A model generated the notes under the pieces. That model made no database searches. It saw nothing but the letters and a program-made list of their open reading frames with translations, and was not told the origin of the DNA. A stretch of DNA of 64,000 nt, from the NCBI RefSeq assembly GCF_015482775.1, contig NZ_CP058214.1, forward strand, positions 2,594,501 through 2,658,500. Reading direction: 5' to 3'. A program made the translations under genes and the position numbers. The DNA comes from Kaustia mangrovi (GTDB lineage Bacteria; Pseudomonadota; Alphaproteobacteria; Rhizobiales; Im1). Of this stretch, positions 1 to 12,767 are shown in pieces (position 1 is the first letter of the stretch; every line of letters starts with the position of its first letter).

Positions 1-438
1 GAGGCGGCGATAGCCCTCCGCCTCCTCGACCGGATTGAGATCGGCGCGCTGGATGTTCTCCACAAGCGCGACCTCGAGCGCCTCGGCATCGGAGAGCTCG
101 CGCACGATGACCGGAACTTCATGGAGACCGGCCTTCTGGGCCGCCCGCCAGCGGCGCTCGCCCGCCACAATCTCATAGGCGTTGGCCGGATCGGCCACGG
201 GCCGCACGAGGAGCGGCTGAAGCATGCCCTTTTCCCGCAGGGACTGGGCAAGATCGTCGAGATCCTCGTCCTGGAAGGTCTTTCGCGGATTGTGGGGATT
301 GCGCCGCAGAAAGGCGATCGGCATCTGCTTCAGACCGCGCTGCGGCCGGCTTTCCTCCGGTGCCGGCGCCTCGACCGTGTCCTCGCCGATCAACGCGGCC
401 AGTCCGCGCCCGAGCCGTTTTCTGCCTTGCTGAACCAT
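1..438 (-). CDS. parB: ParB chromosome partitioning protein, N-terminal part (cut by window edge)
   Basis: The first 146 residues of ParB, the CTP-dependent clamp that binds parS and recruits ParA to segregate replication origins. The reading runs off the left window edge, so the helix-turn-helix and dimerisation parts are missing. Visible are the N-terminal ParA-contact stretch [10 protein letters not shown] (residues 9-18), NPHNPRKTF, the CTP-binding GERRWRAA motif (93-100) and the [14 protein letters not shown] motif (127-140), all diagnostic of chromosomal ParB. The start ATG lies 89 bp downstream of the parA stop, in the usual parA-parB order. The several parS-like sites in the next 13 kb are its expected targets. 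Identification is secure; only the C-terminus is unseen. Confidence 0.95.
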
Positions 439-527: not shown

Positions 528-1368
<841 letters not shown>

Positions 1369-1385
<17 letters not shown>

Positions 1386-2040
1386 CTATGGCCTCCCGCA
1401 CGATGAGAACGGAGCCGGAAGGACCGGTCACGCTCGGGTGCGTCTGCGCATCGATACTCCAAGATATAGCGGCGTCGGTCAACTCGTTGTCCACATGTTG
1501 GCCCTTCAGGAACAGTCCTATGGTACCGTTTCCGATGAAGCGCGCCGTGAGCTCAAGCAGCTTCGGCAATGGCGCCAGAGCCCGCGCGCTGACCACATCG
1601 GGACGTCCGCCGAGGTCCTCGAGCCCGATATCCTCGATCCGTCTGGCATGGACCGTGGCCGGCGCGCCGGCGACCCGCGCGGCCTCGCGAAGGAAGGCCG
1701 CCTTCTTCCGGTTGCTCTCCACCAGATGGACCATGGCACCCGGCCGCTCCGCCACCGCAATCGCCAGGACAATCCCCGGGAACCCTCCGCCGCTTCCGAC
1801 ATCGAGAATGATTCGCGCCGTGGAAGGAGTATAGCGCAAAAGCTGCAGGCTGTCGGCGACATGCCGTGCCCAGATATCCGGTACCGTGGCCGGACCGATG
1901 AGATTGACGCTGCGGTTCCAGCGTTCGACCAGCGCGACGAAGCGCTCCAGCCGCTCGCGTGATTCACGTGAAACACCGAATGCGCGCGCCACAGCCTCGC
2001 CAGTCGCGAGATCGCCCGCCGCGGGCCCCTGCTCCCTCAT
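1369..2040 (-). CDS. rsmG: 16S rRNA (guanine-527-N7)-methyltransferase RsmG (GidB)
   Basis: 223-residue SAM-dependent methyltransferase that makes m7G527 in 16S rRNA; in other bacteria its loss gives low-level streptomycin resistance. Family signatures visible are [11 protein letters not shown], the SAM-binding [15 protein letters not shown] loop and the following [13 protein letters not shown] stretch. The start codon overlaps the mnmG stop (ATGA), and the 3' end overlaps parA by 17 bp, so it sits inside a tight mnmG-rsmG-parA-parB run. A parS-like palindrome is embedded near the 5' end, where it encodes V-S-R-E. Confidence 0.95.
1960..1975. other. parS-like ParB binding site inside rsmG
   Basis: 16-mer TGATTCACGTGAAACA, one mismatch from the canonical parS palindrome TGTTTCACGTGAAACA. 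It lies in the 5' part of rsmG, about 9 kb from the candidate oriC. The mismatch breaks the outer symmetry only; the central TCACGTGA core is intact. Confidence 0.8.
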
Positions 2041-3947
2041 GCCGTCCGCCGCAGGTCGTCGCGCCGCTTCAGATGGGCAAGAAGCACGGTGAGCGCCGCC
2101 GGGGTCATGCCGTCGATACGCGCCGCCTGGCCAAGCGTTCCGGGCCGCACGGCCTCCAGCTTCTGGCGGGCTTCGGTCGACAGGCCCGGGATCTCGCGAT
2201 AGTCGATGGCGGTGGGAATGGCGCGCCGCTCGTCGCGCCGGAATGCCTCGATATCGGCATGCTGGCGATCCAGATAGCCGGAATAGAGCGCGTCGATCTC
2301 AAGCTGCTCCACGGCATAGGCAGGCAGACCGGCAAGCTCCGGCCAGATCGCCGCAAGCCGGTCGAAGGTCACATCCGGAAGGCCCAGGAGCTGCACCACG
2401 GACCGGCGGACACCGTCGCGATTGACCGCAAAGCCATGCCGGCGCGCCTCATCGGGCGTCAGGGTGAGCCGTTCCGCCGTTTCACGTGAAACATCGAGCC
2501 ATCGGGCCTTCTCCGCGAAGGCCGCCGCCCGATCCACCCCGACGAGCCCCCATTCGCCACCGAGCGCGGTGAGGCGCTGGTCGGCATTGTCCGCCCTCAG
2601 CGTCAGCCGGTACTCCGCACGCGATGTGAACATCCGGTAGGGCTCGCTCACGCCGCGCGTCACGAGATCGTCGATCATCACCCCGATATAGGCCTGCGAG
2701 CGGTCCAGCGCGACGGTGTCGGCGCCCGATGCTGTCCGCGCGGCGTTCAGGCCCGCCATCAGCCCCTGTGCCGCCGCCTCCTCGTAACCGGTCGTCCCGT
2801 TGATCTGGCCGGCGAGGAACAGGCCCGGCATGGCCTTGCATTCGAGCGCCGGGGTCAGCTCGCGCGGATCGATGTAATCGTATTCGATGGCATAGCCCGG
2901 CCGGATCACCTCCGCCCGCTCGAGCCCGGGAATGGTCTTCAGGAAGGCGGTCTGGACCTCCTCCGGAAGGGAGGTCGAGATGCCGTTCGGATAGACGGTG
3001 TGGTCGTCGAGCCCCTCCGGCTCCAGGAAGATCTGATGGGCCGTGCGGTCGCGGAACCGCACGACCTTGTCCTCGATGGACGGGCAGTAGCGCGGCCCGG
3101 TGCTTTCGATCTGCCCCGAATAGATCGGCGAACGGTCGAGATTCTCCGCGATCAGCGCATGGGTCGCCGCGTTCGTTGCCGTGACGTGGCAACTGATCTG
3201 CGGCTGGAGGATTTCCGTCGTCAGGAAGGAGAACGGCACGGGCGGCTCGTCGCCCTTCTGCTCGGCAAGCCCCGCCCAGTCGATGGTTCGCCCGTCGAGC
3301 CGCGGCGGCGTACCTGTCTTGAGCCGGCCGAGCGCCAGCCCTGCGTCGTAGAGGCGGTCCGACAGGCCGAGCGCGGGCGCCTCCCCCACACGGCCCGCCG
3401 GGATTCGCCGCTCGCCGATATGGATCAGGCCGCGCAGGAACGTGCCCGTGGTGAGCACCACCGCCCCGGCGAGCAAGCGCCGCCCGTCCTCCAGCACCAC
3501 GCCCTCGATGCGCGATCCCGTCGGGATCAGGTCCTCGACCGCGCCCTCCACCAGGACCAGCCCCGGCGTCGCGGCCAGCTCCTCCTGCATGGCCTTGCGA
3601 TAGAGCGCGCGGTCGGCCTGCGCCCTCGGCCCGCGCACCGCCGGTCCCTTGCTGCGGTTGAGCAGGCGGAACTGGATACCGGCCCTGTCGGCCACCCGAC
3701 CCATCACACCGTCGAGCGCATCGATCTCACGGACCAGATGGCCCTTGCCCAGCCCGCCTATGGCCGGATTGCAGGACATCTCGCCAATGGTCGCGATCCG
3801 GTGCGTCACGAGCGCCGTACGCGCGCCATAGCGCGCCGCCGCCGCGGCGGCCTCGCAACCGGCGTGCCCGCCGCCCACGACGATCACGTCGAAGGTCCCG
3901 TCCGCCATGTCCCGTCCGTCCATCGCATTCATCCTGGCGAGCGTCAT
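2037..3947 (-). CDS. mnmG: tRNA uridine-34 5-carboxymethylaminomethyl modification enzyme MnmG (GidA)
   Basis: FAD-binding subunit of the MnmE-MnmG complex, which installs cmnm5 on the wobble uridine of several tRNAs. The FAD dinucleotide-binding motif [14 protein letters not shown] sits close to the N-terminus and the [21 protein letters not shown] signature follows. I chose the ATG at 3947, which has AAAGGGCTGG upstream; the ATG at 3908, immediately before the FAD domain, is an equally possible start and gives a more typical N-terminus. Length is about 636 residues (623 from 3908), usual for the family. It is followed by rsmG (ATGA overlap) and preceded by mnmE at 88 bp. One parS site lies inside the gene and another just upstream. 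Confidence 0.95.
2478..2493. other. parS site inside mnmG
   Basis: CGTTTCACGTGAAACA, identical to the canonical parS at 15 of 16 positions, only the outermost base differing. It is read within the C-terminal part of mnmG as V-S-R-E-T. About 8.6 kb from the candidate oriC. Confidence 0.88.
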
Positions 3948-4007: not shown

Positions 4008-4023
4008 CGTTTCACGTGAAACA
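4008..4023. other. parS site between mnmE and mnmG
   Basis: CGTTTCACGTGAAACA, the same 15-of-16 match as the copy inside mnmG. It occupies the 88-bp gap between the mnmE stop and the mnmG start, so it is not constrained by protein coding. About 7 kb from the candidate oriC. Confidence 0.9.
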
Positions 4024-5687: not shown

Positions 5688-7715
<2,028 letters not shown>

Positions 7716-7724
7716 GCCACCGTC

Positions 7725-7740
7725 TGTTTCACGGGAAACG
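7725..7740. other. Degenerate parS-like palindrome between the DUF255 gene and rho
   Basis: TGTTTCACGGGAAACG matches parS at 14 of 16 positions, but one mismatch is the central T-to-G, which should weaken ParB contact. It is non-coding, 10 bp after the DUF255 stop codon. Confidence 0.45.
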
Positions 7741-11288: not shown

Positions 11289-12128
11289 GTGAATAGCCGG
11301 GTCAAGACGTTCTACCACATCCACCTGATCTCCGATTCCACGGGCGAGACCCTCAATACGGTCGCGCGGGCGGCCGCCGCGCACTATGAGCGGTTCCACC
11401 CCATCGAGCACACCTATGCGCTGGTGCGCACGCCCAAGCAGCTCCACCGCGTGCTCCAGGAGGTCGAAGGCAATCCGGGCATCGTGCTGTTCACGCTGGT
11501 CGACGACGGCCTGAGGCGCGAGCTGGAGACCCGCTGCCGCATGCTGGAGGTGCCCTGTATCTCCGTGCTCGATCCGGTCGTGGCGACGCTTGCCACCTAT
11601 CTCAATGCCCAGTCGGAGCCGCGCATCGGGGCCCAGCACACGCTCGACTCGGAGTATTTCCGCCGCATCGAGGCGCTGAACTACACCATGCTCCACGATG
11701 ACGGCCAGCATGCCGAGACGCTCGACGCCGCAGATGTCGTCCTCGTCGGCGTGAGCCGGACCTCCAAGACGCCGACGAGCATGTATCTCGCCAATCGCGG
11801 CATCAAGGCGGCCAATGTGCCGGTCGTGCCGAACGTTCCGCTGCCGGCGACGCTGGAAGAGGCGCGCCATCCGCTGATCGTCGGCCTGGTGGCGAGCCCG
11901 GAACGGATCGCCCAGATCCGGCGCAACAGGCTGATCTCGCTCAACCAGGACGAGGAAACGCCCTATGTGGACCGCGAGGCGATCACCGAGGAGCTCGTCG
12001 CGACGCGGCGGCTGTGCGGGCGTAACAACTGGCCGCTGATCGACGTGACCCGCCGGTCCATCGAGGAGACCGCGGCAGCCATACTGAACCTCCTGTCCGA
12101 ACGCCAATATGAGAGATCCGCGCAGTGA
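11289..12128 (+). CDS. Pyruvate, phosphate dikinase / PEP synthase regulatory protein (DUF299)
   Basis: 279-residue bifunctional kinase/pyrophosphorylase that switches PEP synthase or pyruvate phosphate dikinase by ADP-dependent threonine phosphorylation and Pi-dependent dephosphorylation. It begins with TFYHIHLISDSTGETL and has the nucleotide-binding GVSRTSKTPTS loop (154-164). I chose the GTG at 11,289: it has GAGG eight bases upstream and yields the family's normal N-terminus, whereas the ATG at 11,154 adds 45 unrelated residues that would run through the origin region. The stop overlaps the maf start (GTGA). First gene on the right side of the candidate oriC. Confidence 0.9.
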   Translation: MNSRVKTFYHIHLISDSTGETLNTVARAAAAHYERFHPIEHTYALVRTPKQLHRVLQEVEGNPGIVLFTLVDDGLRRELETRCRMLEVPCISVLDPVVATLATYLNAQSEPRIGAQHTLDSEYFRRIEALNYTMLHDDGQHAETLDAADVVLVGVSRTSKTPTSMYLANRGIKAANVPVVPNVPLPATLEEARHPLIVGLVASPERIAQIRRNRLISLNQDEETPYVDREAITEELVATRRLCGRNNWPLIDVTRRSIEETAAAILNLLSERQYERSAQ

Positions 12129-12748
12129 CCGCGAAAACGCTCTGCCATACCGAGGTCATACTCGCATCCGCCAGCGCCATCCGCCGGCAGCTCCTCGAGG
12201 GGGCCGGTCTCAGGGTCCGTGCGATCCGGGCCGATATCGACGAGGATGCGGTCAAGCAGACCCTGCGCGGCGACGACGTGGATGCGGGGCCGGGCGATGT
12301 CGCCTCGATCCTTGCCCAGACGAAGGCCGTCGCCGTCTCCCAGAACCATCCCGGATCGCTGGTGATCGGCGCCGACCAGGTTCTCGTCCATGACAGTGCG
12401 GTACTCGACAAGCCGCGCTCGGTGGAGGATGCGCGCAGCCAGCTTCTGGAGCTGCGTGGCCGCGAGCACAGCCTCATCAGCGCGGTCGCCTGCGCGCGGG
12501 CCGGCGAGGTCGTGTGGACGCACGATGGCGAGGCGCGTCTCGCCATGCGCCAGTTCACGCCGGAATTCCTCGGAACCTATCTCGCCGCCCTTGGCGAGGA
12601 GGTCACAGAAAGCGTCGGCGGCTACAAGCTCGAGGGGCTCGGCATCCAGCTCTTCGACCGTGTCGAGGGCGATTATTTCACCATTCTCGGCCTGCCCATG
12701 CTGGCGCTGATCGGCTTTCTGCGCAGCGAGGCGGTGCTCTCCGTATAA
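12125..12748 (+). CDS. maf: Maf-like nucleoside triphosphate pyrophosphatase
   Basis: 207-residue Maf/Ham1-superfamily nucleotide pyrophosphatase, which hydrolyses non-canonical or modified NTPs; the exact substrate cannot be told. Visible are LASASAIRRQLLEGAGL at the N-terminus, the central GADQVLVHD and the EVTESVGGYKLEGLGIQLF segment. The GTG start overlaps the preceding stop by four bases, indicating translational coupling; the Maf motif begins a few residues later. The gene ends 11 bp before aroE. The neighbours maf-aroE-coaE-dnaQ are a conserved alphaproteobacterial set. Confidence 0.92.
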   Translation: MTAKTLCHTEVILASASAIRRQLLEGAGLRVRAIRADIDEDAVKQTLRGDDVDAGPGDVASILAQTKAVAVSQNHPGSLVIGADQVLVHDSAVLDKPRSVEDARSQLLELRGREHSLISAVACARAGEVVWTHDGEARLAMRQFTPEFLGTYLAALGEEVTESVGGYKLEGLGIQLFDRVEGDYFTILGLPMLALIGFLRSEAVLSV

Positions 12749-12751
12749 GGG

Positions 12752-12767
12752 TGTTTCACATGAAACA
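12752..12767. other. parS-like palindrome spanning the aroE start codon
   Basis: TGTTTCACATGAAACA differs from parS at a single central position (G to A), and that change creates the ATG of aroE at 12,760. It is about 1.7 kb from the candidate origin on the side opposite parAB. Central-base changes are expected to weaken ParB binding. Confidence 0.6.

Follow-up and report, generated by a model that had tools for sequence, protein, structure and literature searches.

A probable parS-type palindrome with a CA centre over the aroE start codon of Kaustia mangrovi

The palindrome that lies over the start codon of aroE in Kaustia mangrovi is probably a parS-type nucleation site for ParB, marking the aroE-side edge of a parS cluster beside the parAB genes. 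In the window (the whole 64,000-nucleotide stretch of DNA analysed here), the 16-bp sequence TGTTTCACATGAAACA differs from chromosomal parS, TGTTTCACGTGAAACA, by a single mismatch at position 9, which leaves it with a CA rather than a CG centre and without perfect symmetry. The aroE ATG is at 12760-12762, its first base (12760) being also the first base of the palindrome's right arm, which is read as the codons ATG AAA CA(G), and the left arm takes up 8 of the 11 bases between the stop codon of the preceding maf-like gene and the ATG. The initial annotation of this DNA, which had described a parS-like palindrome one central base off parS with the ATG at its centre, is borne out in these respects. 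Given the right arm, the exact left arm is expected from base composition with a probability of 4.5e-6. The aroE product scores 368 bits against NF001312 in a model search, for a cut-off of 295.

Table 1. Features of the window that bear on the aroE-start palindrome (positions counted from the first base of the window).
Feature	Position	Strand	Remarks
parB, 5' part	1..438	-	remainder left of the window (L118:1440-2339)
parA family ATPase gene	528..1385	-	ParA-type models, none over its cut-off
parS-like TGATTCACGTGAAACA	1960..1975	+	inside rsmG, read V-S-R-E-S
parS-like CGTTTCACGTGAAACA	2478..2493	+	inside mnmG, read V-S-R-E-T
parS-like CGTTTCACGTGAAACA	4008..4023	+	between mnmG and mnmE
DUF255/thioredoxin-like gene	5688..7715		
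degenerate parS-like GGTTTCACGTGAAATG	6587..6602	+	3 mismatches; read V-S-R-E-M within the DUF255/thioredoxin-like gene
degenerate parS-like TGTTTCACGGGAAACG	7725..7740	+	2 mismatches; past the stop of the DUF255 gene
maf-like gene	12125..12748	+	stop 12746-12748, 11 bases ahead of the aroE ATG
AAGGGTG, candidate ribosome-binding sequence	12747..12753	+	overlaps the palindrome's first two bases; ends 6 nt before the ATG
parS-type palindrome TGTTTCACATGAAACA, CA centre	12752..12767	+	over the aroE start; 1 mismatch; same-register site in G002
aroE, shikimate dehydrogenase, 278 aa	12760..13596	+	NF001312 match

The window holds six sites with at most three mismatches to parS, where shuffling predicts 0.02 and none of 100 shuffles reaches six, so that the palindrome is not a product of chance. 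Throughout the 4.63-Mb genome, all four sites with at most one mismatch fall inside one 10.8-kb cluster, and outside the window cluster there is one more site with at most three mismatches (it has three). The aroE site itself is 12.3 kb from the start of parB. It resembles the chromosomal parS sites of Caulobacter crescentus and Burkholderia cenocepacia c1 in being a 16-bp palindrome, with 15 of 16 bases in common, and in lying in a cluster beside parAB with a cognate ParB whose recognition helix is canonical; it differs from them in its CA centre and imperfect symmetry, in having that centre on a start codon, and in its position, which is not generally conserved.

Overlap between parS-like sites and coding sequence is common in the window cluster, occurring in rsmG, mnmG and the DUF255 gene. 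The aroE site shares with the rsmG and mnmG sites this double use of bases; those sites are read as V-S-R-E-T/S within the gene, whereas the aroE site is read as F-H-M-K at its very start. F-H-M-K is the other open register of the motif, the third register of CACGTG containing a stop. When frames of at least 250 open codons are counted, the first register accommodates 42 of the 160 core sites in 80 named loci and the second another 25, which leaves 93 outside both; this count is crude, as an open frame in GC-rich DNA is not always a gene. Intragenic sites are read V-S-R-E-T/S/M in the window (at 1960, 2478 and 6587) and V-S-H-E-T in genome G138, and the shared V-S-R-E and V-S-H-E readings suggest that in rsmG and mnmG the parS-like site coincides with a conserved stretch of peptide. 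The TGTTTCACGGGAAACG site sits between the DUF255 and rho genes, which converge on it.

The ParB of the host is of the type expected to recognise parS. It aligns with Caulobacter ParB (6t1f) with an E-value of 4.5e-75, and the recognition helix GKSRSHVANTMRLL is identical in the two proteins, with the TAGHARA motif also kept. The ParB residues discussed in the passages of PMC7383237 drawn on here are R173, 179, 184 and G201; by counting residues onto the motifs, the host protein keeps R173, T179 and G201 and has Gly in place of A184. With the cluster and this canonical ParB, the palindrome is very probably of parS type, and that part of the initial annotation stands; its proposal that the need for a start codon caused the altered centre is not supported.

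ParB would dock on the palindrome by way of two half-sites, of which TGTTTCAC is perfect and TGTTTCAT carries a change at the innermost base, and would then spread from the aroE site, together with the other sites, within the segregation complex. The right arm doubles as the first aroE codons (RTG AAR CA), which would unite a centromere element and a gene start in one sequence. ParB probably binds this site with somewhat reduced affinity. For B. cenocepacia ParB-c1, the cited passages of PMC5450999 state that symmetrical changes in parS abolish binding, except those at positions 1-16 and a transition at positions 5-12, and that a half-parS retains 49% of the binding score; the aroE site is altered in one arm only, from which, as far as those passages go, an intermediate affinity may be expected. 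Caulobacter has both strong and weak parS-like sites, the weak ones showing little or no enrichment in vivo in the part of PMC5815017 drawn on here, and by analogy the aroE site could resemble the weak kind.

It is also conceivable, if unlikely, that the palindrome is a degenerate relic, a former parS no longer bound by ParB. The central mismatch and the absence of any trace in two relatives are consistent with this, as is the loss of binding upon symmetrical central changes in one system (PMC5450999, in the same passages). However, 15 of the 16 positions are kept, with the outer arms entire, and CACATG is the sole form of the site within two mismatches of parS in the genus here called g31. 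A site that ParB binds remains the preferred reading.

The 80 named loci, taken to at most 10 kb on each side of aroE, contain 185 parS-like sites, of which 182 have CG, two TG and one CA at the centre, with no other form among them. Across the order, the exact sequence GTTTCACATGAAAC occurs at 43 sites in 32 of 199 genomes, the window's counted. We sought parB in 24 of these 32 genomes, holding 33 of the 43 sites (the other eight genomes hold ten sites, the window's among them), and found 20 of the 33 within 16 kb of parB; five more are on the parB contig at 31-197 kb, and the last eight either are on a different contig or belong to the one genome in which parB was not matched. Since 32 kb makes up only some 1% of a genome of this kind, these counts amount to a strong enrichment near parB, albeit among genomes that include many close relatives and are not independent. 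Genome-wide CACATG counts alone were rejected as proof of parS function, for other non-CG centres also occur, each at about one to four sites among the matches listed, and only closeness to parB carries weight. From this distribution, CACATG is best described as a natural minority form of the parS centre, and its presence at parB-proximal sites elsewhere means that, on sequence evidence, a CG centre is not a defining feature of functional sites there. A text search of a collection of papers for the letters of the variant listed three, none with a title related to ParB, although sites printed in figures escape such a search.

Individual genomes illustrate this distribution. G032 has three variant sites about 5 kb apart; G021, G033 and G040 each have one, at 9.3, 2.0 and 1.2 kb respectively from a CG site; and G052 has one 1.4 kb from parB, as well as two CATGTG sites, degenerate in one arm, 5.9 kb from aroE. 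The relatives of G052 in genus g51 differ from it: in G121 and G197 the variant is 189-197 kb away from parB, which has a CG site near it. G027 and G028, with one variant site each on a contig other than that of aroE, go against the pattern of parB proximity. Four GTTTCACATGAAAC sites in G157, on contigs C3, C12, C42 and C45, are all away from the parB contig and possibly belong to a repeated element.

In the four genomes of genus g31 examined (G032, G074, G138 and G189), all 12 sites with at most two mismatches are CACATG-centred and none is CACGTG-centred. The three sites of G138 comprise one in rsmG and one in a NUDIX gene, both read V-S-H-E-T, and one that adjoins the end of mnmE; none is at a gene start. 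In the three g31 genomes in which parB could be placed, the sites on the parB contig (two or three in each) are oriented like parB (L171). A special ParB residue to match the CA centre was considered and rejected, there being no residue peculiar to g31 in the recognition helix of three g31 ParBs. Of the 31 positions that set these ParBs apart from the others, one directly precedes the helix-turn-helix motif and none is in GKSRSH-ANT; the Leu of SHLANT is common to g31 and f31 ParBs.

Does a start codon explain the CA centre? We took one CACATG site from each of 30 genomes and read the frame from its ATG. Eighteen frames of fewer than 60 codons were left out, which may miss genuine genes of that size, and the other 12 were scanned against Pfam. 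At three of the 30 sites the ATG is the clear start of a recognised protein, namely aroE in the window and a DUF1737 gene in G071 and G106; eight further scanned frames gave no Pfam match. In G197 the frame continues into an AI-2E transporter, with the transporter domain starting only at residue 117, so that the ATG, 189 kb from parB, is probably upstream of the true start. For the most part, then, a CA centre comes about where there is no start codon, and CACATG was accordingly rejected as a start-codon signature, two of the three clear starts being one and the same DUF1737 gene. That gene begins at the GTTTCACATGAAAC ATG in two species of one genus (G106 and G071; L126, L127; L173, L174), with the sites 44-46 kb from parB; this is either a second start codon covered by a parS-like palindrome or a chance occurrence.

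A coding need behind the central base, as the initial annotation proposed, would mean that CACATG replaced a perfect parS to meet the requirement of aroE for an ATG, as a compromise between coding and ParB binding. Comparison with the related genome G002 lends this some colour: the ATG is central in the window but three codons upstream in G002, so that between the two the upstream ATG corresponds to GTG and the central GTG to ATG, and ATG is generally the better start codon. We nevertheless consider it improbable. Many parB-proximal CACATG sites have no recognised gene start, and it is misleading to say that the change makes the ATG, since canonical CACGTG would itself put an in-frame GTG at this very position and several open reading frames near aroE start with GTG. 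A CA centre is thus not required for a start codon, and the presence of a Shine-Dalgarno-like sequence also tells against a coding constraint.

This sequence, AAGGGTG, bears on the further statement that aroE has no evident ribosome-binding site, which is not supported. Its GGGTG (12749-12753) pairs at -6.5 kcal/mol with the tail of 16S rRNA, in the sequence that we assume for it; 400 random ATGs of the window give a median of -3.9 and a 10th percentile of -7.6 kcal/mol, and the starts of the neighbouring genes maf and coaE give -5.0 and -7.4 kcal/mol. We regard AAGGGTG as a ribosome-binding candidate of moderate strength, comparable with its neighbours. Alternatively, aroE could start at the in-frame GTG of 12751, which has a pairing energy of -9.0 kcal/mol, yet its pairing bases are 14 nt off.

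The arms of the palindrome could in principle act as an RNA hairpin at the start codon that controls translation, with the likeness to parS coincidental. The 16-mer does fold, at -3.9 kcal/mol with a 6-bp stem and an ACAU loop, and it keeps this hairpin when folded within 81 nt of sequence. The perfect parS 16-mer gives the same -3.9 kcal/mol, however, making the hairpin a by-product of any parS, and both the identity with parS and the place in the cluster would have to be coincidence; we consider this explanation extremely improbable.

Comparison of aroE starts shows how restricted the site is. The 110 starts examined comprise 30 from whole genomes, the window's included, and 80 from named loci, with at least two genomes present in both sets. 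Between -60 and +30 of the start of the aroE match, the best match to parS has one mismatch in the window, two in G002 and at least six in the other 108. G002 belongs to the same family and carries TGATTCACGTGAAGCA, CACGTG-centred and in the same aroE codon register, its gene beginning ATG ATT CAC GTG AAG CAT GCC TGT where that of the window's genome (G000) begins GTG TTT CAC ATG AAA CAG GCC TGT. The other two family members lack the site: G003 begins ATG ATT GCC AAG AGG CAG, and G001 has no trace of the palindrome at its aroE start, leaving two of four family genomes with it. G001 does have a CACATG-centred near-parS, TGTTTCACATGAAAAA, about 27 kb beyond aroE (G001:C1:569169-569184). Scanning 397 genomes of the order for the pattern, by which aroE starts that diverge further would be missed, gave five matches; the left arm is found only in G000 and G002, and the remaining three merely begin ATGAARCG.

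A tree of six concatenated proteins joins G002 with G003, and this pair with G001, apart from G000, both nodes having support of 100, which means that the aroE site arose by two gains or by one gain and two losses. That G000 and G002 have the site in an identical register favours a shared origin, as judged from four genomes. Being missing from 108 of 110 aroE starts, G001 and G003 among them, the aroE-start site is not generally conserved, and by its distribution it is lineage-specific. The initial annotation had taken the lack of a palindrome in relatives to speak against its idea; these 108 starts do lack one, but G002 does not, and the possibility it had raised of a site in relatives that is not always CACATG is realised in the CACGTG-centred version of G002.

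If the site affects aroE at all, the effect is in all likelihood slight and incidental. The palindrome could be an operator through which ParB, either sitting on the site or spreading outwards, controls aroE or genes further downstream; it covers the aroE start, and in the cited passages of PMC5521831 and PMC7022226 Pseudomonas aeruginosa ParB represses the genes beside parS3 and parS4, a precedent that makes an effect on aroE conceivable. The aroE site resembles parS3 and parS4 in being an origin-proximal parS that adjoins a gene start, but those two lie between genes, upstream of ones whose repression has been measured, whereas the aroE site is probably inside an operon and is known from sequence. 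The 11-base gap to maf suggests an operon-internal site without a promoter of its own, and the site is missing from nearly all aroE starts. We therefore give the operator little weight; a probably operon-internal site that is not generally conserved would be expected to have no effect on aroE or a small one.

For a site of parS type, the aroE-start palindrome offers an example of a centromere site and a gene start sharing the same bases. A wider reading, tentative and on balance doubtful, is that the parS of this order need not have the symmetric CG centre: the CACATG form, a directional parS, would work as a centromere element, being fixed in at least one genus (g31, four of four genomes examined) as the sole near-parS form, and in the window's genome would double as the aroE start, through which ParB occupancy could reach the expression of a housekeeping gene. 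As for how parS is defined, living lineages appear able to change the innermost base pair from CG to CA, in contrast to the one in-vitro study, as far as its cited passages go, in which symmetrical central changes abolished binding. Motif scans that require a CG centre would report zero parS sites in the four g31 genomes examined.
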